Positions 40,649 to 51,960 of a stretch of DNA of 64,000 bases are shown in pieces. The stretch covers positions 1-64,000 of the forward strand of contig NZ_LYPF02000014.1 of the NCBI RefSeq assembly GCF_001661595.2, read 5' to 3'. Within the stretch, counting starts at the first letter, position 1. Every line of letters begins with the position of its first letter. This DNA comes from Crocinitomix algicola (GTDB taxonomy: Bacteria > Bacteroidota > Bacteroidia > Flavobacteriales_D > Crocinitomicaceae). The position numbers and the translations under genes are program-made. The notes below the pieces were generated by a model, which searched no databases, was not told the DNA's origin, and saw nothing but the letters and a program-made list of their open reading frames with translations.

Positions 40649-43600
40649 ATGGATTTTTTGCGCGTTTTCATACTCTACTTTATACTTAGTATACCCGTTT
40701 TGGGATTGACGCAAGAAGTGTCAACGCCAAAAGGAAATTTTAAATTTTTTGAAAACAAAGGACAGTGGCCAAACGGTGTATTCTATCGCGCAAAACTTAA
40801 TGCGGGGAATATTTGGTTAGAACAAGGAAGAGTGCTCTATCACTTTATGGATTATTCGAATGTGCAACACCAACATATCGGACACAATCATCATCATAAA
40901 AACGAAGATTTAACTTTTAAACAAGATTTAATCGCAGTAAATTTTGTCGGATCGAATGAAAAAGTAGAAACAAAAACAAAATATCCCACAAAAGAATATC
41001 ATAATTACTTTTTAGGTAATGTTCCAGAGAGGTGGGCTTCTGAGGTTTATGGGTTTCATCATGTAGAATATCAAGAATTGTATCCCGGCATTAACCTTCG
41101 GTTTTTTGAGCAAAATGAGCAATTAAAATACGAGTTTCATCTGGCGCCATTTGCAAATTCATCCTTGATAAAAATGACTTATGATGGCGCGGAAAAAATC
41201 AAAGTAACGAAAGAAGGAAATTTATTAATACAATCTAATATTGGGGTAATTCGTGAAAAAAAACCTTTTGCGTATCAAATAAAAAATGGTCGTATTGTTG
41301 AAGTGAAGTGTCAGTTTAATTTAACAAATAATCAAGTCACCTATGCTTTGGGTGAGTACGATCATAACCTCGAATTAATTATAGATCCCGAGTTAATTTT
41401 CTCTACTTATAGCGGTGCGGATTCTGATAATTTTGGAATGACGGCGACGTATGCATACGATGGGAAAGGGTATAGTGGAGGTACGATTTATGGAAACTCA
41501 TACCCTGCTCCGGCCCCAGGTTGGAATACCTCACCTTATATTGATGTTTTTGACGTGAGCGGAGCCACAACCGATGTTTTTATCTCGAAGTATTCTGCCG
41601 ATGGTACTTCCATGATATGGACGAATTTTATTGGGGGTGGTGACAATACTCAAGGCACAGAAACTGTACATAGTTTAGTTTGCGATAAAGAAAATAATAT
41701 CTTCCTCTATGGCGCTACGTCTAGCACAGATTTTCCAATCGAAGGTGGATTTCAAACTGAGCATGGTGGAGGCAGCTTATTAACGATATCTTCGAATGGT
41801 GCGCGCTTTGGTTCTCAAGGTACAGATATATACGTAGCCAAAATTAGTTCGGACGGTATGAATTTATTGGGCTCTACATATATTGGCGGTAGTGCTAATG
41901 ATGGGGTGAATTATAATATTTCGGGAGGAACATATCCGCCCGCTAATTACGACTCCTTAAGCTATAATTATGGGGATCAATTTAGAGGTGAAATAATGGT
42001 AGATTCGTTAGGATTTGTTTTTGTTACTTCCAGCACATGGTCCGACGACTTTCCAGTTGAAAGCGGATTCCAAATGACGAGTGGAGGTCATCTGGATGCA
42101 GTGATCTTTAAATTGTCTGATGATTTTTCTAGTCTTGTTTGGTCTTCTTATTTTGGAGGGAGTGAAAATGATGCCGGATATTCTGTTAAACTAGATTCTA
42201 GTTATAATGTCGTGTTTGCGGGCGGGACGTCTTCTAGTGATTTATTAGGTACTGCCGGAGGAATTCAACCCACTTATAATGGAGGGATAACGGATGGGTT
42301 TATTTGCAAAATCCCCGAGGAAGGCGATGTTATTCTTCAGTCAAGTTTTATCGGTACAAGTGATTATGATCAAGTATTTTTTGTCGAGATTGATCGTTGG
42401 GACAACGTTTATTTGCTTGGACAAAGTTTAGGGGCAATGCCCGTTAGCGCAGATGTTTATTCAAACCCTGGAAGTTCTCAATTCATATGGAAACTGAATT
42501 CGGATTTAAACTCAATAGAATACTCCACTGTGTTTGGGAATGGCTCTAGTACAACAGACATATCACCTTCCGCTTTTTTAGTCGATGTTTGTGGAAATGT
42601 TTATGTCTCAGGTTGGGGAGGAAATATTTTAACAGGAGTTTCCACCTTAGGCATGCCAACCACTGACGATGCTTTTGACGAGGATCCGGGATTAGGCTTC
42701 AACTTTTATATGATTGTTTTTGAACGGAATCTAGAAGACATTCTTTATGCAACGTATATGGGAGGAGATGAGTCACGTGCACACGTTGATGGAGGCACAT
42801 CTCGTTTTGATAGTTATGGTATTGTTTATCAGTCGGTGTGTGGCGGTTGTGGTGGGTTTAGCGATTTTCCGGCAACGGCGGGAGCTTGGTCTGAAATCAA
42901 TGAAAGTGACCGATGTAATAATGTGCTTTATAAGTTCGATTTTGAAATAGTTCCAGTGGCAAAATTTGAAGTTGATTTATTAGAAGGATGCGCACCGCTT
43001 ACATTAACTTTTGACAATGAAAGTAATGATACTGTCAATTTTAGTTGGGATTTCGGTCCTGGCAGTGAAATTATAGAGGATGGAGTAAATCCAACAGTTC
43101 TTTTTGATGAACCTGGTGTATACGAAGTCGTACTTTCCATAACGGATACCATTTGTAATTTAACCGACACAGCAGTAAAGCTAATTACCGTTTATGACGA
43201 ATTACAACTTGAAATTCCGAATGACACCATTGTTTGTGATGTCTTTGATTTTGAATATGTTGCGAATTCTTATGGCACAGCGATTTCATTCGAATGGTCT
43301 GAGTCACTTGATTTTGGAACATTATTGAACGATCACGATATGGATTCGTCAATCAGTGTAAATCCTGTAGAGTCTACAACCTATTACATTCGAGCATCAA
43401 ATGGTTGGGAATTATGTGATATAATAGATTCAGTAACCGTGTTTTTTGTGGATGGAAGTATTGATGTTTTGGGAGATACAACTATTTGCCTCGGAGATAC
43501 AACGATTTTACAAGCCATAAATTTATTGCCAGAAATTGGAATAGATTTTGACTGGTCACCGAACGAATATATTATTTACGAAGAGGATGGATTGGCATTA

Positions 43601-44218
43601 GCCGTCCCACCAACCTCAATGTACTTCTACCTCACAGCGGTCTCAGAATTAGGATGTACGCTACTTGATTCTGTTTGGGTAGAAGTTCAGAGCATAGACT
43701 TATCAGCGGTTTATGCTACCGCAACTCCAGAAATTGTTCCAGAAGGAGGCACAACGACATTAGAGGCATTTCCAACAGGTTTCGATTATCAATGGTTTCC
43801 TCCAGATGGGCTTTCCAATCCGTATGACCGTATAACGAATGCAGTTGTGAATCAGGACAGGACTTATACAGTGATTATGGATGATGGAGTTTGTGGAGCG
43901 ATGACCACGGTTTCTGTTACGACGTACGAATTTGTTTGTGGTGATGTTTATGTGTTCGTACCATCCGCCTTCTCACCAAATAATGATGGTGAAAATGATA
44001 AACTATTTGTGCGGGGACAAAACTTGGAAAAAATTAATTTAAAGGTTTTTGATCGTTGGGGCGAACTAGTTTTTGAAACCACTGATCAAGGTGTGGGTTG
44101 GGATGGCACGTTTAAAGGTGAAAATGTTGATCCGGATGTTTATGTCTATCATTTACAAGTGATTTGTTTTGATGGTCAAGAAAATTTAATCAAAGGAAAT
44201 GTTACGGTTTTAAGATAA
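40649..44218 (+). CDS. Large T9SS substrate: DUF7948, SBBP-type repeats, PKD, type B sorting domain
   Basis: 1189 residues. Signal peptide (VFILYFILSIPVLGLTQ). N-terminal DUF7948-like domain, about 30-250 (FFENKGQWPNGVFYRA, YPGINLRFFEQN). Then 250-770 holds beta-propeller-like SBBP repeats, each with (V/L)-x-K-x-S-x-DG and Y-x-GG-S/N-x-x-D segments. A PKD domain lies near 775-850 (FSWDFG), two further Ig-like units follow, and the C-terminal 85 residues are a gliding-motility type B domain (FVPSAFSPNNDGENDKLFV, VFDRWGELVF, GWDGTF, KGNVTVLR). Predicted to be exported by the type IX system. SprF follows by 4 bases, as is typical for type B substrates. Confidence 0.9.
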   Translation: MDFLRVFILYFILSIPVLGLTQEVSTPKGNFKFFENKGQWPNGVFYRAKLNAGNIWLEQGRVLYHFMDYSNVQHQHIGHNHHHKNEDLTFKQDLIAVNFVGSNEKVETKTKYPTKEYHNYFLGNVPERWASEVYGFHHVEYQELYPGINLRFFEQNEQLKYEFHLAPFANSSLIKMTYDGAEKIKVTKEGNLLIQSNIGVIREKKPFAYQIKNGRIVEVKCQFNLTNNQVTYALGEYDHNLELIIDPELIFSTYSGADSDNFGMTATYAYDGKGYSGGTIYGNSYPAPAPGWNTSPYIDVFDVSGATTDVFISKYSADGTSMIWTNFIGGGDNTQGTETVHSLVCDKENNIFLYGATSSTDFPIEGGFQTEHGGGSLLTISSNGARFGSQGTDIYVAKISSDGMNLLGSTYIGGSANDGVNYNISGGTYPPANYDSLSYNYGDQFRGEIMVDSLGFVFVTSSTWSDDFPVESGFQMTSGGHLDAVIFKLSDDFSSLVWSSYFGGSENDAGYSVKLDSSYNVVFAGGTSSSDLLGTAGGIQPTYNGGITDGFICKIPEEGDVILQSSFIGTSDYDQVFFVEIDRWDNVYLLGQSLGAMPVSADVYSNPGSSQFIWKLNSDLNSIEYSTVFGNGSSTTDISPSAFLVDVCGNVYVSGWGGNILTGVSTLGMPTTDDAFDEDPGLGFNFYMIVFERNLEDILYATYMGGDESRAHVDGGTSRFDSYGIVYQSVCGGCGGFSDFPATAGAWSEINESDRCNNVLYKFDFEIVPVAKFEVDLLEGCAPLTLTFDNESNDTVNFSWDFGPGSEIIEDGVNPTVLFDEPGVYEVVLSITDTICNLTDTAVKLITVYDELQLEIPNDTIVCDVFDFEYVANSYGTAISFEWSESLDFGTLLNDHDMDSSISVNPVESTTYYIRASNGWELCDIIDSVTVFFVDGSIDVLGDTTICLGDTTILQAINLLPEIGIDFDWSPNEYIIYEEDGLALAVPPTSMYFYLTAVSELGCTLLDSVWVEVQSIDLSAVYATATPEIVPEGGTTTLEAFPTGFDYQWFPPDGLSNPYDRITNAVVNQDRTYTVIMDDGVCGAMTTVSVTTYEFVCGDVYVFVPSAFSPNNDGENDKLFVRGQNLEKINLKVFDRWGELVFETTDQGVGWDGTFKGENVDPDVYVYHLQVICFDGQENLIKGNVTVLR

Positions 44219-44222
44219 GTTT

Positions 44223-45227
44223 TTGGAGAAGTTTTTTTGCATATTACTAACGGTGTTAAGCTTGTCTTTGAGAGCTCAGGATATCCATTTTTCGCAATTT
44301 TACAGTAGTCCTGTGCAGTTAAATCCTGCTCTTACGGGAAATTTTGAAGGAGATTGGCGATTTTCTGGAAACCAACGGAGTCAATGGCGCTCAGTCAGTC
44401 GACCTTTTAACACCTTTGGGTTTTCGGCGGAAAATAGAGAAGGACGGGTAATTCCAGGACTTCTTTTTGGGGCTAATTTTTTTCATGATGCTGCCGGTGA
44501 TGGGAATTATAGAACTTTTGAATTGAATGTTACAAGTAGCTATGAATATTTTCTCCCCGGTGATTCTGCCCATAAAATAACGCCAGGAATTCAGGTCGGT
44601 TTTAATCACAGGAGAATTGATTTTTCTCAATTGAGTTTTGATAACCAATTCAACGGATTTTATTACGATGCTTCTTTGCCAACAAACGAGAATTTATTAA
44701 CGAATAATCGAACAGGGTTAAATTTAGCTTTGGGCGTAATATACAGTTATCAAGTCGATAAAAGGAATCAGTTCACAGCTGGAATTGGGTGGTTTAACTT
44801 ATCTAAAAAAGGACAAAGTTTTTATGAAGATCAAACCATTGTAAGAGATAAAAGAGTCGTGCTGCATGGTAAAGGAATTTATGAGTTGAACTTTGAATGG
44901 GATTTGCAACCTGGTTTTATGATGCAGTTTCAAGGGAAATTTAATGAAGTCGTTTTGGGATCAAACATCCGCTATATTTATAAAGATAAAAGAGGGGAAT
45001 ATTTTGCCCCTTATGCTGGCATGTGGTTCAGAAATAAAGATGCGGTCAATTTGGTAGTCGGAGCGTATTATAATCAGTGGATTGCAGGAGTAAGTTATGA
45101 TGTAAACTTCTCACAATTGGCTCCAGCAAGCAGGGTAAGAGGGGGCTTAGAGTTTTCTTTGCAATATATACTGCATATCTTCAGGCCTAAAGTGATTCAG
45201 CACCGTGTTTGTCCTGATTATTTATAG
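44223..45227 (+). CDS. PorP/SprF family T9SS outer-membrane protein
   Basis: 334 residues from a TTG start at 44223, 4 bases after the stop of the giant protein. Signal peptide ILLTVLSLSLRAQD followed by IHFSQFYSSPVQLNPALTGNF, the N-terminal signature of the family, then a predicted barrel. SprF-like proteins work with the type IX system to place type B substrates, and each is often encoded next to its own substrate, as here. Confidence 0.92.
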   Translation: MEKFFCILLTVLSLSLRAQDIHFSQFYSSPVQLNPALTGNFEGDWRFSGNQRSQWRSVSRPFNTFGFSAENREGRVIPGLLFGANFFHDAAGDGNYRTFELNVTSSYEYFLPGDSAHKITPGIQVGFNHRRIDFSQLSFDNQFNGFYYDASLPTNENLLTNNRTGLNLALGVIYSYQVDKRNQFTAGIGWFNLSKKGQSFYEDQTIVRDKRVVLHGKGIYELNFEWDLQPGFMMQFQGKFNEVVLGSNIRYIYKDKRGEYFAPYAGMWFRNKDAVNLVVGAYYNQWIAGVSYDVNFSQLAPASRVRGGLEFSLQYILHIFRPKVIQHRVCPDYL

Positions 45228-45231
45228 TACA

Positions 45232-47487
45232 ATGTTAAATTTTTTGTTTTCATATCGTTCTTTTTTAATGCTAATTTTTCTTGGTTGGCAAGTAAATGTT
45301 TTAGGACAGTCTTTTACTCAAATGATGGACTTTGCGGACGAAAAAGTAGCCGAAGGAGATTATTTCTACGCAATAAAATATTACCGTAAAGCAATGGAAA
45401 TAGATTCAAATTCTGTCATGGTTTTGTGGAAGTTTGCAGAGGCTCAACGGCGTTATAAAGACTATGAGAAAGCCGAGTTTTATTATCGTAAAGTATACAA
45501 TAAGGAAAATGGTTTAATCTATCCGATGAGTGTTTTTTGGTTAGCATCGATGGAAATGCAAAATGGCAAATATGCAGAGGCAATAAAGCATTGGAAATTG
45601 GCCAAAAAAACGTTTAAAAGAGAGCGAGAAGGGTATGCGTATAAAAAATCTCAGCAAGCATTTATAGCATGTTTGTGGGCGCAAAAGGCAATTGAAGATA
45701 CAAGTGGTTACATCGTTAATCCTTTACCGCAGCCGGTTAATTCTATAGATGCAGAACTCGCACCGATGATTTATGAAAATCAAATTTGGTTTACATCCCT
45801 TAAGGCAGATTCGATTAATTCTCGAGAAGAGGTTCATTCTGAGGATTATTCTCTCCAAATTTATTCCGCTGAATTGGAGGGAGATAGTTTTAATAACCTG
45901 AATGCAGTTAAAGGTGTTCAAGAAAAAGGAAAAAACTCAGCGAATGGTTCTGTTAGTCCAGATGGAAAACGTTTTTACTTTTCTCGTTGCAACGAAAATT
46001 TTGCGTGTAAAATATACGTCGGAAAATTAGTGGATGGTAAAGTCAAAGACCTCGATAGCCTAGGGGAAATTATCAATCAACCTGAAAAAATAACCACAAT
46101 GCCCCATAGCACCATTATTAATGGAGTGGAATATTTATTTTTTGTTTCAAATCGTGATAAGTCATTTGGTGGTTTAGATATCTGGTATAGCCAAGTTAAA
46201 AACGGCAATCAATACGGTACTCCAGTTAACTTAGGGAAGCGAATAAATTCTTTAGATGATGAGGTGTCACCATTCTTTGATACCCTAAATCAGAAACTTT
46301 ATTTTAGTTCGAGCTGGTGGGAAGGCTTCGGAGGAATGGATATATTTGAATCAAATTACAAGGATGGAAACTTCGAAAATCCAAAGAACCTAGGAATTCC
46401 TATAAACTCTTCACAAAATGATACTTACTTTATCATTGATCAAAAAAAAGGTGAATTTTATTATTCTTCAAATCGAGTAGGAGTTAAGTATGTAAAAAAC
46501 CCAACCTGTTGCAATGATATTTTTAAGGCAAGTAAAAAGATTCTACCACCGCCAACTCGCTTTGAAACACTGACAGAATTAAATAGTAAATTACCAGTAA
46601 CATTATTCTTTCATAATGACGAACCCAATCCAAAAACAAGAGATACATCAACTCATTTAACGTATATCGAAACATATGAAAGTTATATCGGATTAGAGAA
46701 TAAGTATAAAAGAGAGTATGCAAAAGGATTGTCGAGCGATGAAGCGGAAGATGCAAAGGAAGATATTGATGATTTTTTTACAGAATTTGTAGCACAAGGG
46801 GTACGAGATTTAGAAGAGTTTATTCGATTGCTTGTAGTTGAACTAGAACGAGGATATCAAATTGAAGTGACTGTAAAAGGATTTGCCAGCCCATTAGCAA
46901 AGACGGACTATAACGTTAACTTAACGAAAAGAAGAATTGCGAGTCTTATCAATTATCTTGAAGTCTATGAGGATGGAAAAATTAAGCCGTACCTGAATAA
47001 TAATGCAGAAAATGGAGGTTCTCTTTCCTTTGTTCAAATACCCTTTGGAGAGTATACTGCTGATGCACTGGTCAGTGATAATGTCAACGATCAAAAAAAT
47101 TCAGTTTACAGCAGAAAAGCAGCGTTGGAACGAAAAATTGAAATTCAAAGTGTGAGCTTTATAAATCAAGATTCTTCTTATGCTAAATTGACCTTTGATA
47201 ATCAAATTCATGACTTTGGTAAAGTAAACCAAGGCGAGAAATTGAGGCATCAATTTTCTTTCACTAATTCAGGTGAGGAATGGTTGTTAATTGAATCCTT
47301 AGAAGCAGATTGTAGTTGCATTACTTATTCCCTAAGCCAAAATAAATTAGCACCGGGTGAAACTGCTTCCATCATCGTTTCATGGGATACGAATGGTTTG
47401 AACGGAAAACAAATCCGTCAAATAAAAATCATTGCCAATGTCGAAAATAAAGGGAAAGAAATTGCAGTAACAGCTGAGGTTGAGTAA
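45232..47487 (+). CDS. TPR-PD40-OmpA-like-DUF1573 outer-membrane protein
   Basis: 751 residues from the ATG at 45232; a GTG nine codons earlier overlaps sprF and is less likely. Signal peptide (LIFLGWQVNVLGQ). TPR repeats at about 25-150 (DYFYAIKYYRKAMEID, DYEKAEFYYRKVYN). WD40-like PD40 repeats at 175-400 (SPDGKRFYFSR, NGVEYLFFVSNRD). A divergent OmpA-type domain near 530-590 (YQIEVTVKGFASPLAKTDYNVNLTKRRI). C-terminal DUF1573 Ig-like domain at 645-751 (HDFGKVNQGEKLRHQFSFTNSG, EADCSC). Combines peptidoglycan-binding and PorE-like architecture; operon partner of sprF. Confidence 0.82.
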   Translation: MLNFLFSYRSFLMLIFLGWQVNVLGQSFTQMMDFADEKVAEGDYFYAIKYYRKAMEIDSNSVMVLWKFAEAQRRYKDYEKAEFYYRKVYNKENGLIYPMSVFWLASMEMQNGKYAEAIKHWKLAKKTFKREREGYAYKKSQQAFIACLWAQKAIEDTSGYIVNPLPQPVNSIDAELAPMIYENQIWFTSLKADSINSREEVHSEDYSLQIYSAELEGDSFNNLNAVKGVQEKGKNSANGSVSPDGKRFYFSRCNENFACKIYVGKLVDGKVKDLDSLGEIINQPEKITTMPHSTIINGVEYLFFVSNRDKSFGGLDIWYSQVKNGNQYGTPVNLGKRINSLDDEVSPFFDTLNQKLYFSSSWWEGFGGMDIFESNYKDGNFENPKNLGIPINSSQNDTYFIIDQKKGEFYYSSNRVGVKYVKNPTCCNDIFKASKKILPPPTRFETLTELNSKLPVTLFFHNDEPNPKTRDTSTHLTYIETYESYIGLENKYKREYAKGLSSDEAEDAKEDIDDFFTEFVAQGVRDLEEFIRLLVVELERGYQIEVTVKGFASPLAKTDYNVNLTKRRIASLINYLEVYEDGKIKPYLNNNAENGGSLSFVQIPFGEYTADALVSDNVNDQKNSVYSRKAALERKIEIQSVSFINQDSSYAKLTFDNQIHDFGKVNQGEKLRHQFSFTNSGEEWLLIESLEADCSCITYSLSQNKLAPGETASIIVSWDTNGLNGKQIRQIKIIANVENKGKEIAVTAEVE

Positions 47488-47490
47488 TTT

Positions 47491-47910
47491 TTAAAACTCT
47501 TCAGTTCCCTTAATCACAATAGATTCATCAGAGTTCATCAAGACGGTTCGAATCTTATAGCCTTCTGGTCGTTCAACTAGAACAATACGCTCGTAAACTT
47601 TCCCAATCTCAGGAATATCGAATGTATAACTGAAACGAACGCGTTCAATACCGTTGTCTATTTTTTTATTAAACCCTGATTCTTTTACTCGGTTAGTTTG
47701 AGGTCCCCAGCCATCAACAATTGAAAGAAATCCATGCCATTCATCTTTTGTAACATCTTCCAAATCGGCTAAATTGTTAACGATATAATCATAGTCTCTT
47801 TCATCTAATTTTTGATGAAATTCATCCGCAACTTTTTCTGCTTGCTCCGTCGAACAACTAAAAGTGATAACGCTAAGGGCTATAAACCCTAGAAGTTTAA
47901 TAGTTTTCAT
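47491..47910 (-). CDS. DUF4019-like lipoprotein
   Basis: 139 residues. Lipoprotein signal (LLGFIALSVITFSC, cysteine at 19). The mature part (DEFHQKLDERDYDYIVNNLADL, WHGFLSIVDGWGPQTNRV) resembles DUF4019 proteins. Convergent with the OmpA-like gene (3-base gap). A -7 element is 26 bases upstream. Function unknown. Confidence 0.65.
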   Translation of the reverse strand: MKTIKLLGFIALSVITFSCSTEQAEKVADEFHQKLDERDYDYIVNNLADLEDVTKDEWHGFLSIVDGWGPQTNRVKESGFNKKIDNGIERVRFSYTFDIPEIGKVYERIVLVERPEGYKIRTVLMNSDESIVIKGTEEF

Positions 47911-47943: not shown

Positions 47944-48052
47944 AATATTTTTTAATTCGATTTACAACTTTCGGCGGAAAGAAACCTTGATAATCAAGAT
48001 GTACACTTGTTAATTAATTGTGAAATGAACCTTTCTATTGAAAGATTGTATT

Positions 48053-48061: not shown

Positions 48062-49099
48062 ATGATGCATATTCAAAATAAATATTTGAAGGTATACCTA
48101 GTGATTTTCGGGCTATTCGTATTGAGCTTTAATTCCGTTTTTGGCCAAGGGGGGAGTTTGACACCTTTTGATTTAAAAGAGGCTTATTTGGAGAGACGGG
48201 CCTATTTTGAACGTGATGGAACCAAAGAATTTAACCCTTCGCAAAAAGCAGAATTGGAGGGTATGGTTAAACGGTTGGAATTGAATGCGCCAAATTCTTA
48301 TGAGTATCATTTTGTAAAATATATTCACGCGAACTATAGTGGGCCTGGAATGGAAAGCTTATTAAGGGCGTACGAACTTAAACCGGATGAAAAAGAGGTC
48401 AAAATTGCTTTATTTGGATATTATGAATTAACGAATCAAGCCAGTAAATCTAAAGCTTTTGCTGCAGCGGTTTTAAATCGAATTTCTCCACTTCAACGTA
48501 AATATTATCAAGATGTTCTCCGCTTTACAAATCAAAAGTATCTCGTAATGAGTGGTGAGGATGATGCTTTGGTGGCCTTAGCTTTGATACGTTCGGGACA
48601 GGTTAATCAAAACGTTCAGATTATTAACCTGGATTTTTTGGTGAATGACAAGTATAAAAATCAAATTTTACAACAGATGGGCCTTCCATCAGTTCCGTTT
48701 AAAGGAAATGAAAGTAATTTTCTAGCTACAGTTTTGAAATCGAATAAAGAAAAAATAGCCGTTTCTACAACTGTAAGCCAAAAGTATTTGTCAAAAATGG
48801 CGGAACACATTTTTATTACCGGTTTATCCTACCAATATAATGCTAGCGGACAATTAGAGATTTTGCAGCACTTTTGGTCTGAGAATCAAAACTATTTGGA
48901 AAAGATTCAATTGTCGTCAAAGCAAGATAAAAGATTGTATCAAAATTACTTACCACCATTATTGACCTTGTATAAAATAGAGTTATTGAATGGCAATGAA
49001 CATAAAAAGTTAAAAAAGGCAATTGTATTATTTGCAGAAAAAGTAGGTAAACTATCTGCGGTTGAAGAAGTGTTAAAGGCGTACGAACAAATTGAATGA
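48062..49099 (+). CDS. Exported helical repeat protein, first gene of the sigma-factor operon
   Basis: 345 residues, or 344 if the second of two adjacent ATG codons is used. Signal peptide (VYLVIFGLFVLSFNSVFGQ). The rest is almost all alpha-helical with TPR-like spacing (SLLRAYELKPDEKEVKIALFGYYEL) but no canonical TPR consensus over its length. Its last 4 bases overlap the sigma-factor start (ATGA), so expression is coupled. A periplasmic sensor or cargo role is only a guess. Confidence 0.75.
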   Translation: MMHIQNKYLKVYLVIFGLFVLSFNSVFGQGGSLTPFDLKEAYLERRAYFERDGTKEFNPSQKAELEGMVKRLELNAPNSYEYHFVKYIHANYSGPGMESLLRAYELKPDEKEVKIALFGYYELTNQASKSKAFAAAVLNRISPLQRKYYQDVLRFTNQKYLVMSGEDDALVALALIRSGQVNQNVQIINLDFLVNDKYKNQILQQMGLPSVPFKGNESNFLATVLKSNKEKIAVSTTVSQKYLSKMAEHIFITGLSYQYNASGQLEILQHFWSENQNYLEKIQLSSKQDKRLYQNYLPPLLTLYKIELLNGNEHKKLKKAIVLFAEKVGKLSAVEEVLKAYEQIE

Positions 49100-49683
49100 A
49101 GCTCTTTAAAAAAGACTATAAAGCATACAGTGACGAGGATTTGATGCGCTTTTTTTTAAAGGGTGATAGGAAAGCTTTTGAGCAAATTTATGACAGGTAC
49201 GAAAAGTATATGATCAACTTTTTTTACCGAAAATTATGGAGTGATAGAGAAAAAGCTAGTGATTTTACACACGATTTATTTACAAAATTAATTGATAATC
49301 CAAAAGCTTTTGATCCAAGTAGATCATTCAAAACATGGTTGTTTTCACTGGCAAACAACATGTGTAAAAATGAATATAAAAAACAAGAGATAAGAAAACC
49401 AACATCCTATGATATTCCAGAAGGAGTGGATCCAAAATCAGGAACTGTACTTCCAGATAGTCAGGTGGATAAAAATAATTTTAACGAACAATTAAAAACA
49501 GAATTAGATAAATTAAATGAAAAACACCGTCAAGTTTTTATGTTGAGGCACTTTGAAGGATTGTCTTTGAAAGAAATTGCTGAAATATTGGAAATCAATA
49601 ATGGTACAGTGAAATCAAGGTTGCATTTTGCCACAAAAACGCTAGCATCAAAACTTGAAGTTTACAGAAAAACCTTGACCTAA
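49096..49683 (+). CDS. ECF-type RNA polymerase sigma factor
   Basis: 195 residues. Sigma region 2 at about 10-85 (FLKGDRKAFEQIYDRYEKYM, FTHDLFTKLIDNP, FKTWLFSLANNMCKNEYK) and region 4 at about 135-190 (LNEKHRQVFMLRHFEGLSLKEIAEILEINNGTVKSRLHFA). Directs transcription of a stress or envelope regulon. Coupled upstream to the exported protein and followed 12 bases later by a membrane anti-sigma-like protein. Confidence 0.93.
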   Translation: MKLFKKDYKAYSDEDLMRFFLKGDRKAFEQIYDRYEKYMINFFYRKLWSDREKASDFTHDLFTKLIDNPKAFDPSRSFKTWLFSLANNMCKNEYKKQEIRKPTSYDIPEGVDPKSGTVLPDSQVDKNNFNEQLKTELDKLNEKHRQVFMLRHFEGLSLKEIAEILEINNGTVKSRLHFATKTLASKLEVYRKTLT

Positions 49684-49694
49684 GGGATTAAAAA

Positions 49695-50660
49695 ATGAAT
49701 GCGATGACGAAAGAAGTTGAAGATATCATCCGAGAAAAAGCCTTTTTTGAACTGACTCCAGAAGAGCTTATTTTGATTAAGGAGTTCGCTCAAGATGAGG
49801 AGGAATATGCCAATATGAAATGGTTTCTCGATGAAACCAAAGCAACCTTTGATGCTGATAAGATTGAAGCGCCTAAAGTGTTGAAAGGAAAGGTGATGTC
49901 TCACCTAACTTCTACCCTTAAAAAGAAAGGATATTGGCTCAATAGTGTTGGGGTGTTTTTAATGCCTGAAGGTAAGCCGATGTTAAAAAAGCCGGCATTT
50001 CAACTTGGAATCGCAGCGGTGGCAATTCTTGGATTTCTTTTCCTTTATGATAATTCAAATGAGCTTTACCAAGAAACAATGGTACAAAATGTGGTTGAAG
50101 AAAAAAATGCTGAACAACCACATGTTCCTGCAGGAAAAGAGGAAAATTTTGAGGAAGTTGAAAATGAAAGAGATCAACAAGAGATGGCAATAAAGGAAGA
50201 AGTAGATGATGAGCAACTCGAAATTGTTGACGATTTATCAAAAGCTTCCAACGAAAAAATAGTACGTGATGAACCAATTTTACAAGAAGAATTGGTTGTA
50301 GAAACAGAAGAAGATGAAGTGCAAGAAGTCGTAGCCGATGAGGTGAACATGAACCGAATGGATTATAGTTTTGATTCACCCCAGACCGATGATATTTATG
50401 TCCCTGAAAAAGAACTTAGCCCAAGTGTAATGGATTCGAATAGTGTTATTGCCAATACATACGCTCAACCAACAACAACTTTATCAAGTACGTATAATAC
50501 AGTTCCTGAAAATGCAGACCTTTCTTTTTCAGAAGTTACTGCGGTAAGAGCCAAAAAAAGTATGAACGCTGAGGCTAAGGCGAGCGAAGAAATCTTACCA
50601 AAAAGCCTACATATTAATGCTACAAAAGAACTTAACCTTTTATTTTTTACTGAAAAATGA
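49695..50660 (+). CDS. Membrane anti-sigma-like protein
   Basis: 321 residues. Cytosolic part at 1-100 (ELTPEELILIKEFAQDEEEYANMKW) in the position and size expected for a sigma-binding domain, one membrane helix at 101-118 (AFQLGIAAVAILGFLFLY), then a 200-residue, strongly acidic and probably disordered outer domain. No zinc-binding HxxxCxxC motif is seen. The call as anti-sigma factor rests on the gene order after an ECF sigma and on topology. Its stop overlaps the next start by 4 bases. Confidence 0.7.
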   Translation: MNAMTKEVEDIIREKAFFELTPEELILIKEFAQDEEEYANMKWFLDETKATFDADKIEAPKVLKGKVMSHLTSTLKKKGYWLNSVGVFLMPEGKPMLKKPAFQLGIAAVAILGFLFLYDNSNELYQETMVQNVVEEKNAEQPHVPAGKEENFEEVENERDQQEMAIKEEVDDEQLEIVDDLSKASNEKIVRDEPILQEELVVETEEDEVQEVVADEVNMNRMDYSFDSPQTDDIYVPEKELSPSVMDSNSVIANTYAQPTTTLSSTYNTVPENADLSFSEVTAVRAKKSMNAEAKASEEILPKSLHINATKELNLLFFTEK

Positions 50661-51229
50661 TACAAACTAAATTGATAATTTCCGTCTTTCTTTCAAGCTT
50701 ATTGACATTAAGTTGCTCAACTAATGAAAATAAAAAAGCGAATAATCCTAAAGATTCAGAAACTGAGGTAACATCATTTGAACGAAATCCGAAAGATATT
50801 GTAACCGTTGATGATGTAAAGCTAGAGGTCTATGATTTTGAAAATTTTGAACCGTTCACAAAGCAAATGGACAACAAAATTCACATCATCAATTTTTGGG
50901 CCACTTGGTGTATTCCTTGTGTTAAGGAATTGCCTTACTTCGAACAATTATCGGAAAAGTATCCGACAGTTGAAATTTTACTAGTGAGTATGGATTTTTC
51001 AACAAAAATTGAATCAGATTTAATCCCTTTTATCCAAAAAAACAAGTTAAAATCAGAAGTAATAATGTTGCATGAGCCAGACGGTAATTCTTGGATTCCA
51101 AAGATTGACCCTAACTGGTCAGGGGCAATACCAGCAACTATAATTTATAAGAATGAAAAGGTGAAATTCTACGAGCAATCTTTTACCTTTGAGGAATTAG
51201 AAACCGAATACTTAAAATTTACAAAATGA
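50657..51229 (+). CDS. TlpA/ResA-like thiol redoxin, lipoprotein
   Basis: 190 residues. Lipoprotein signal (VFLSSLLTLSC) then a thioredoxin fold with INFWATWCIPCVKELPYF (CxxC redox pair) and a cis-proline region GAIPATIIY. Acts as a periplasmic or outer-membrane-tethered thiol-disulfide oxidoreductase. Overlaps both neighbours by 4 bases (ATGA), so it is firmly part of the operon. Confidence 0.88.
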   Translation: MIQTKLIISVFLSSLLTLSCSTNENKKANNPKDSETEVTSFERNPKDIVTVDDVKLEVYDFENFEPFTKQMDNKIHIINFWATWCIPCVKELPYFEQLSEKYPTVEILLVSMDFSTKIESDLIPFIQKNKLKSEVIMLHEPDGNSWIPKIDPNWSGAIPATIIYKNEKVKFYEQSFTFEELETEYLKFTK

Positions 51230-51909
51230 AACAAATTAAATATTTAGCATTTGCTTTGCCATTCACATTCTTCGCTTGTGGAAGCGGTGAAAATACAGAA
51301 ACGTCAACCGAAGAGGTAGATACAGTAGCGGTTACCGAAGAAGTTGAAGAAGAGATAGAAGAAGAAGTCGTGTCAGGGTACTCAGTTGGAGACATGGCGA
51401 CAGATTTCTCATTAATGAATATTGACGATGAGATGGTATCTTTAGCGGATTTTCCTGAGGCAAAAGGTTATATCGTTACCTTTACTTGTAATCACTGTCC
51501 ATATGCCATCGCTTATGAAGACCGCATTATTGCACTGGACAAAAAGTATAAAGAACTTGGATACCCAGTGATCGCAATCAATCCGAATAATCCTGAAATT
51601 GCAGAAGATGATAGCTTTGATAAGATGAAAGTTAGAGCACAGGAAAAAGGCTTCACCTTTCCATATTTGTTTGATGAAGGACAAAAAATCTACCCTCAGT
51701 ATGGAGCAACAAAAACGCCGCACATGTTTGTATTGGAAAAAACTGAGGAAGGAAATCGTGTAGCTTACATCGGAACGATAGATGATAATTATGAAGATGA
51801 GTCAGCAGTTACAGAACGTTACGTTGAGGATGCTGTGGATGCTTTGCTGAAAGGTGAACAACCAGCGGTAACAGAAACAAAAGCTATTGGATGCTCTATT
51901 AAGGCATAG
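51226..51909 (+). CDS. AhpC/TSA-type thioredoxin-like lipoprotein
   Basis: 227 residues. Lipoprotein signal (FALPFTFFAC) followed by an acidic linker of about 30 residues rich in Glu, and a redoxin domain with VTFTCNHCPYAIAYEDRI (CxxC), FPYLFDEG and GATKTPHMFVLE. Resembles the periplasmic/secreted thioredoxin family that carries CNHCPY. It is the last gene of the operon and is followed by a clear terminator. Confidence 0.85.
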   Translation: MKQIKYLAFALPFTFFACGSGENTETSTEEVDTVAVTEEVEEEIEEEVVSGYSVGDMATDFSLMNIDDEMVSLADFPEAKGYIVTFTCNHCPYAIAYEDRIIALDKKYKELGYPVIAINPNNPEIAEDDSFDKMKVRAQEKGFTFPYLFDEGQKIYPQYGATKTPHMFVLEKTEEGNRVAYIGTIDDNYEDESAVTERYVEDAVDALLKGEQPAVTETKAIGCSIKA

Positions 51910-51930
51910 ATAATTAAGACACTAAATGGA

Positions 51931-51960
51931 ACCCGATACCTAATGGTGTCGGGTTTTTTA
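51931..51960 (+). terminator. Terminator of the sigma-redoxin operon
   Basis: Stem ACCCGATACC / GGTGTCGGGT (one G-T pair), loop TAAT, then six T residues. Confidence 0.85.

Follow-up and report, generated by a model that had tools for sequence, protein, structure and literature searches.

In the RseA/RseB-sigma E system, a membrane anti-sigma factor is removed by proteolysis to release its sigma factor, and the operon is autoregulated. The RsiV-sigma V regulon counters the attack that triggers it. RsiV is a lysozyme-receptor anti-sigma factor that binds lysozyme directly (PMC4183432, PMC5014341). Dma anti-sigma factors consist of an N-terminal domain, a transmembrane helix, a disordered tether and a C-terminal beta-barrel, and adjoin a sigma factor of extracytoplasmic function (ECF) group ECF21; their own operon is among the most induced genes once the anti-sigma factor is lost (PMC13088901). 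Class I anti-sigma domains, which bind sigma, are built of a three-helix bundle plus a fourth helix, and anti-sigma partners have been recognised for few ECF factors of Bacteroidota (class I domains for 6%) (PMC7406223). SigP is run by the PorXY two-component system (PMC7712824), and the SM6 regulon of Flavobacterium psychrophilum has a -10 region with a CGT box (PMC9723704). The 64,000-nucleotide stretch of Crocinitomix algicola analysed here (the window; contig NZ_LYPF02000014.1) carries five genes, named A to E in order and all on the + strand, of which A to C are, on balance, best read as an autoregulated ECF sigma/anti-sigma envelope-stress module of the Flavobacteriales with protease inhibitors among its outputs. 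The features of the locus are as follows.

48026-48050, + strand: ECF-type promoter TGAACC-N15-TGTA (-35 at 48026-48031, -10 at 48047-48050), from a motif scan
48062-49099, + strand: gene A, exported protein of 345 residues, without a Pfam or NCBIfam family above cut-off
49096-49683, + strand: gene B, ECF sigma factor of 195 residues, from Pfam and NCBIfam profiles
49695-50660, + strand: gene C, putative membrane anti-sigma factor of 321 residues, from gene position and an AlphaFold model
49695-49961, + strand: C residues 1-89, presumed sigma-binding helices, from the AlphaFold model
49992-50054, + strand: C residues 100-120, transmembrane helix, from the model and a hydrophobic 19-residue window
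50055-50627, + strand: C residues 121-311, acidic tether predicted to be disordered, from the predicted local distance difference test (pLDDT) and composition
50628-50657, + strand: C residues 312-321, conserved C-terminal tip, from column information content
50657-51229, + strand: gene D, thioredoxin-like lipoprotein with WCIPC, a local addition, from profile matches and locus distribution
51226-51909, + strand: gene E, AhpC-TSA/Redoxin-type lipoprotein with TCNHC, a local addition, from profile matches and locus distribution
51928-51957, + strand: intrinsic terminator hairpin with a U tract, from folding against shuffles

B belongs to the ECF sigma factors (sigma-70 group 4), with regions 2 and 4 present, as the initial annotation had called it: it matches TIGR02937 with 118.8 bits (cut-off 42.9) and PF04542 and PF08281 above cut-off. 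The genes overlap by 4 bases at the A/B, C/D and D/E junctions, the three overlaps described in that annotation; the gap between B and C, given there as 12 bases, measures 11 (49684-49694). The strong terminator said to close the operon is also found. Its hairpin has a folding energy of -22.1 kcal/mol (over 62 nucleotides), where shuffles average -9.7 (z -4.96; none of 200 folds as well), and was not picked up by a simple consensus terminator scan.

The first three genes are conserved as a unit. With a sigma alignment as the query, the genomes collected in GTDB yielded 255 confirmed loci, of which the best 80 were read (mostly Crocinitomicaceae and Flavobacteriales by title). A lies directly upstream of sigma in 78 of the 80 and C directly downstream in 79; all three exceptions (two for A, one for C) are contig ends, and the commonest junctions between the three genes are -4 to +2 bases. 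Because the order is kept throughout apart from contig ends, the arrangement goes beyond chance, and the counts support the initial proposal that one predicted operon joins a sigma/anti-sigma-like pair to an exported protein. Approached from A, sigma adjoins it in all 30 loci read (37 places listed). Among 40 relatives, single-sequence searches with A and C match 28 and 22 genomes, respectively; a C profile matches 36 at an E-value of 0.01 and 31 at 1e-13 or better, and the matches weaker than 1e-13 do not resemble C. Full-length relatives of A are rare outside the order: some match occurs in 196 of 198 phylum genomes, and the A profile reaches 2.1e-56 or better in its own genome, G032 (same order), G062, G143 and G147 only. 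At the corresponding loci, sigma adjoins A in L154 and L155, is divergent from it in L156 and lies two open reading frames (ORFs) off in L157. Since the order of A, sigma and C is kept well outside close relatives, a lack of conserved gene order, which the initial annotation had named as an objection, does not count against these genes; the redoxins are found after C in 7 of 80 loci. Judged by gene order, the relevant unit is the A-B-C trio.

A paralogous trio lies elsewhere in the same genome (L053, C8, 4897-7337), encoding an A-like protein of 387 residues, a sigma factor of 188 and a third protein of 245; it lacks the TGAAC-N16-TGTA promoter described below. The module also occurs in records titled Glaciecola amylolytica (L145), Polynucleobacter meluiroseus (L101) and Chitinophaga pinensis (L102), titles that may be misassigned. 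Other sigma genes in 12 of the loci (e.g. L115), considered with the next ORF as carriers of barrel-type relatives of C, were rejected: one of the 12 gave a weak C match (E-value: 0.0012), and no sequence displayed was C-like.

The module appears, from its upstream sequence, to drive its own expression from an ECF-type promoter. Among 75 regions upstream of A, k-mer counts, the source of this motif, find TGAACC in 56, where shuffles have 2.5. Of the 80 loci, 75 have a complete A start (the five that lack one are uncounted); with the window the set numbers 76. TGAAC-N16-TGTA is present in 73 of the 76, and in the remaining three it appears before an internal methionine once the region is widened past over-called ORF starts. 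The spacing is rigid: spacers of N13-N15 and N17-N19 give no match, N12 gives two and N20 one, shuffles average 0.15 (maximum 3) and the reversed pattern gives none. TGAACY-N15-TGTA has a single match in the window, at 48026-48050 (0.23 expected). Its -10 element ends 11 bases short of the first possible start codon (ATG) of A, as it does at six of the nearest loci, so either the mRNA leader is very short or A starts further in. Beyond the order, two genomes have this promoter before their A relatives (L155 and L156, the latter with A divergent from sigma). Two other promoter types were rejected, as a sigma-70-type scan gave 16 matches where 15.7 were expected (no excess) and the Bacteroidota -7 box TAnnTTTG occurred in 12 of the 75 regions against 8.3 in shuffles (little excess). 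Because autoregulation is usual for ECF factors, B is taken as the reader of the promoter.

The same promoter precedes genes away from the module. Six motif sites in the C. algicola genome lie outside long ORFs and shortly before an ORF. Apart from the A operon, the motif scan places them before an alpha-2-macroglobulin of 2045 residues (PF00207, PF01835, PF17973), a serpin (PF00079), a cysteine-containing protein with a type IX secretion system (T9SS) sorting tail (here the Cys protein), MsrA, with a weaker promoter match, and a DUF4175-like ORF, whose domain match is below cut-off. The first two were followed in other genomes. TGAAC-N16-TGTA precedes 13 of 17 first-gene alpha-2-macroglobulin relatives and four of five complete serpins, the reversed pattern none of either; as both targets were picked by motif sites in C. 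algicola itself, the counts without that genome are also given (12 of 16 and three of four). Three alpha-2-macroglobulin copies second in tandem, which lack the motif, and two serpin fragments were left out. An alpha-2-macroglobulin relative is encoded in 17 of the 31 genomes with C (E-value of 1e-13 or better) and in none of the nine without it (Fisher p 0.005, not corrected for relatedness).

A fuller form of the promoter, TGAACCTTT-N12-TGTA, has 39 sites against five of the reversed pattern in nine genomes of the genus, and an extended form has 19 against one in 60 genomes of the family, 50 of which are without any site. Forty-six new loci were read at these sites (27 of the 39 genus sites and all 19 family sites), three more genus sites having been read earlier. 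Thirty-eight of the 47 promoter sites displayed have a downstream ORF. These ORFs include the A operon (eight), alpha-2-macroglobulin (five), the Cys protein (six, three by sequence start only), DUF4139/DUF4140 proteins (six, four by start only), TonB proteins (two) and WD40 proteins (two, one by start only). By these sites, the predicted outputs of a shared promoter include protease inhibitors along with further proteins of the envelope.

By model and alignment, C has four parts: N-terminal helices, a transmembrane helix, a tether predicted to be disordered and a conserved tip of ten residues. The AlphaFold model (78 sequences, mean pLDDT 64) has helices at residues 3-14, 22-28, 35-54, 61-77 and 81-89, with a pLDDT per ten residues of 80-97 for residues 1-70 and 63-70 for 71-90. 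Their order fits a class I anti-sigma domain, although the best Z in a fold comparison is only 2.9. One transmembrane helix is predicted, and a hydrophobic 19-residue window of this kind is present in all 78 C sequences. The tail beyond it is 106-283 residues long and hydrophilic on average; in the window protein its pLDDT per ten residues is 41-62 for residues 121-300, then rises to 66-70 at 301-320. The initial annotation had described an anti-sigma candidate with a 200-residue acidic outer domain and no zinc motif, and both points stand: the 200 residues past 121 contain 49 D+E against 16 K+R, and HxxxCxxC is absent from the window protein and from all 79 C proteins. The tip has the consensus E-[LVI]-[LI]-D-L-[LFI]-[TF]-[ATV]-x-[FYK] and carries 19.5 bits over its 10 columns (61 sequences below 60% identity), against a mean of 3.2 and a maximum of 6.5 for 20 windows 15-75 residues from the C-terminus; 2000 sets of random windows do not exceed 3.2. 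Of the 61 sequences, 41 end in F or Y and 12 in K. A conserved tip on a tether implies a fixed partner, for which A is the obvious and most likely candidate. C orthologues have only scattered weak Pfam matches (five families, one member each), and a search of solved structures with the A and C profiles gave nothing convincing. A match of the C profile to calnexin (E-value: 0.0005) was set aside, as it spans the transmembrane and acidic stretches and reads as composition.

A was described initially as an exported helical protein. A signal-like N-terminus and a mostly helical structure are borne out, a wholly helical one is not. The AlphaFold-type model (mean pLDDT 93) has a signal-like N-terminal helix, the presumed signal peptide ending before an invariant Q29, followed by tetratricopeptide repeat (TPR)-like helices at about 30-150 and an alpha/beta domain at about 155-345. 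Residues 31-141 align to TPR chains, which dominate the fold-search list (e.g. 7ntf_B, Z 11.2, 2.7 A over 100 residues, where for repeats a Z under 13 may reflect a common arrangement). Pfam matches of the orthologues are weak and spread over seven families, the commonest being a TPR domain, in seven of 76 at best. The L155 relative of A has a T9SS sorting-tail match just under the Pfam cut-off (25.4 against 27 bits). At L064 (7051-9069), an A relative carries a fused FGE-sulfatase domain, and a sigma gene of its own comes next.

The proposed model is as follows. The N-terminal helices of C would hold sigma at the inner membrane, while the tether would reach into the periplasm, where a fixed partner, in all likelihood A, would anchor its tip. 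On envelope damage this hold would be lost, proteases would cut C and sigma would be freed. Sigma would then transcribe its own operon and the protease inhibitors and, in the Crocinitomix clade, also two lipoprotein redoxins. The linkage of A, sigma and C, the rigidly spaced promoter, its recurrence at predicted target genes and the predicted anatomy of C are backed by sequence; the binding of sigma by C, the activating signal and the activation step we infer rather than observe.

Several points weigh against this model. The sigma alignment used as the query was itself built from loci first found through A. TGAACY-N15-TGTA is not enriched across the C. algicola genome (24 sites against 22 reversed), and as the motif is there at background, most single sites in that genome are probably due to chance. 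Nine of the 47 promoter sites displayed lead to genes met once, and another nine have no usable downstream ORF, most lying inside other ORFs. The motif is absent before the A relatives L157 and L158 outside the order and from four of 20 order-level loci (L053, the paralogue; L061; L062; L064, the fusion), and another ECF factor could be the reader of the promoter. The fold comparison of C, with 53 chains aligned, returned no anti-sigma structure (best Z 2.9), a result with which an anti-sigma fold remains compatible.

The strongest competing explanation, though a distinctly less probable one, is that the tip of C docks directly at the outer membrane or an envelope machine, in the manner of Dma, with A an output or feedback protein. 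The parts of Dma anti-sigma factors are described in the order seen in C, with a beta-barrel at the end (PMC13088901); at L156, where A and sigma are divergent, a separate copy of the promoter stands before A; and the promoter also precedes genes for T9SS-sorted, TonB and DUF4139 proteins. Against this, C has no barrel, its tether being predicted disordered for about 180-190 residues and followed by a short tip, and no further exported protein but A is retained next to sigma (78 of 80 loci).

Another idea concerns what sets C off. The long acidic tether, secured at its far end by the tip through A, might be a trip-wire, cut by proteases that enter the envelope, upon which sigma would make alpha-2-macroglobulin and serpin against them. 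Protease-inhibitor outputs and a cuttable tether make this attractive but unproven, and as a whole we consider it rather doubtful; the appeal to lysozyme and RsiV, where attack and defence are matched in kind, is an analogy to be held just as tentatively.

That A takes no part in signalling, and is an envelope protein, bearing a TMEM260-like module, whose place in the operon is accidental, is improbable. Region 162-221 of the A profile does match large proteins (mostly 880-1200 residues among the matches listed) in nearly all Bacteroidota sampled, and the four that were checked all carry PF11028 and are TMEM260-like. PF11028 is found in none of 76 A proteins at an E-value of 0.01, the common part being the A motif region only, and no literature was found that joins any two of TMEM260, DUF2723 and Bacteroidetes. 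The adjacency of A and sigma in both the sigma-anchored and the A-anchored loci argues against chance, as do the A relatives outside the order: an ECF sigma gene adjoins A in L155, is divergent from it in L156 and is close by in L157.

The weakest explanation, a thiol-redox relay in which the redoxins sense or pass a signal through the membrane protein to sigma, was the one first proposed for the locus and is now very improbable: D and E share the predicted operon here and in eight of nine genomes of the genus set, MsrA has its weaker promoter match, one or more cysteines occur past residue 45 in 67 of 78 A orthologues and a single cysteine is conserved in sigma (C90, expected to face the cytoplasm), but the redoxins follow C in seven of 80 loci, the window A and C have no cysteine, no C protein has the zinc motif and the conserved predicted targets include protease inhibitors. 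Cysteine counts in the 79 C proteins are zero in 40, one in 35 and two in four (at least one in 39). The absence of cysteine from A and C in the window, together with that of the zinc motif, leaves the relay unsupported, and it was rejected as the principal explanation on these counts and on the distribution of D and E.

The redoxins themselves are two different CxxC lipoproteins, as first described, with WCIPC in D (Thioredoxin and AhpC-TSA above the Pfam cut-offs) and TCNHC in E (AhpC-TSA and Redoxin). The seven loci that have them (L073-L076, L080, L082 and L084) are all titled Crocinitomix; in the one genome of the genus set without them (G008), another exported protein takes their place after C. 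This restricted distribution suggests that a single clade gained them late. Of the two roles first suggested, sensors or outputs, the former is not supported and the latter holds as a possibility given the shared predicted operon; the redoxins may thus be outputs, added late and locally. In a Taishania locus (L092, 7528-8573) and its close relative L093, C is followed in the same orientation by thioredoxin and rhodanese-thioredoxin-like genes that differ from D and E. These may represent a second, independent link between thiol proteins and the module, and are the one further observation that would favour a relay.

Upstream of A, a T9SS-type neighbourhood occupies 40649-47487, with genes that, in part by Pfam matches, seem to encode a large surface protein and PorP/SprF-like and OmpA/PD40-type proteins. 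Between it and A, and divergent from A, is a small lipoprotein-like gene (47491-47910, - strand) with no Pfam or NCBIfam family above cut-off, found beside A in 12 of the 15 nearest loci (L073-L087).

The A-B-C module, carried by a bacterial family of marine and freshwater habitats, is thus probably an alarm for cell-surface damage and not a thiol sensor. New here, from sequence and models, are the predicted anatomy of C, the predicted fold of A and the putative promoter before A and before alpha-2-macroglobulin and serpin genes. The module offers a candidate anti-sigma partner, an exact promoter, predicted targets and a short peptide that can be tested as a ligand of a single exported protein. 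If the model is true, the expression of bacterial alpha-2-macroglobulin and serpin would be tied to a dedicated stress switch.

No description of an A-sigma-C module was found in the literature searched, in keeping with the initial statement that no named system has this composition; that statement needs amending for C, whose architecture is close to that of the published Dma family (PMC13088901). TMEM260-like proteins (PF11028) contain a stretch that matches the A motif region, whereas A lacks the PF11028 domain. SigP, like B, is a Bacteroidota ECF sigma factor tied to cell-surface proteins, but is under two-component control, and the -10 region of the SM6 regulon has a CGT box in place of TGTA. 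RsiV is a precedent for an anti-sigma factor set off by the attack that its regulon counters; it binds lysozyme directly, whereas C, with a tether predicted to be disordered, is not known to bind a ligand. With RseA/RseB-sigma E, A-B-C shares a membrane anti-sigma factor, presumed proteolytic release and an autoregulated operon, and differs in having upstream of sigma a TPR-like plus alpha/beta protein without a family match. The nearest published family to C is Dma. Both have an N-terminal domain, a transmembrane helix, a long disordered tether and a sigma neighbour, but Dma ends in a beta-barrel and C in a conserved 10-residue tip, with no strand predicted after the transmembrane helix (at low confidence), and an A-like upstream partner, a TGAAC promoter and alpha-2-macroglobulin or serpin targets go unmentioned for Dma in the available part of that report (PMC13088901). 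As C shares three parts with Dma and lacks the barrel, it may work like a Dma anti-sigma factor and is not classed as one.

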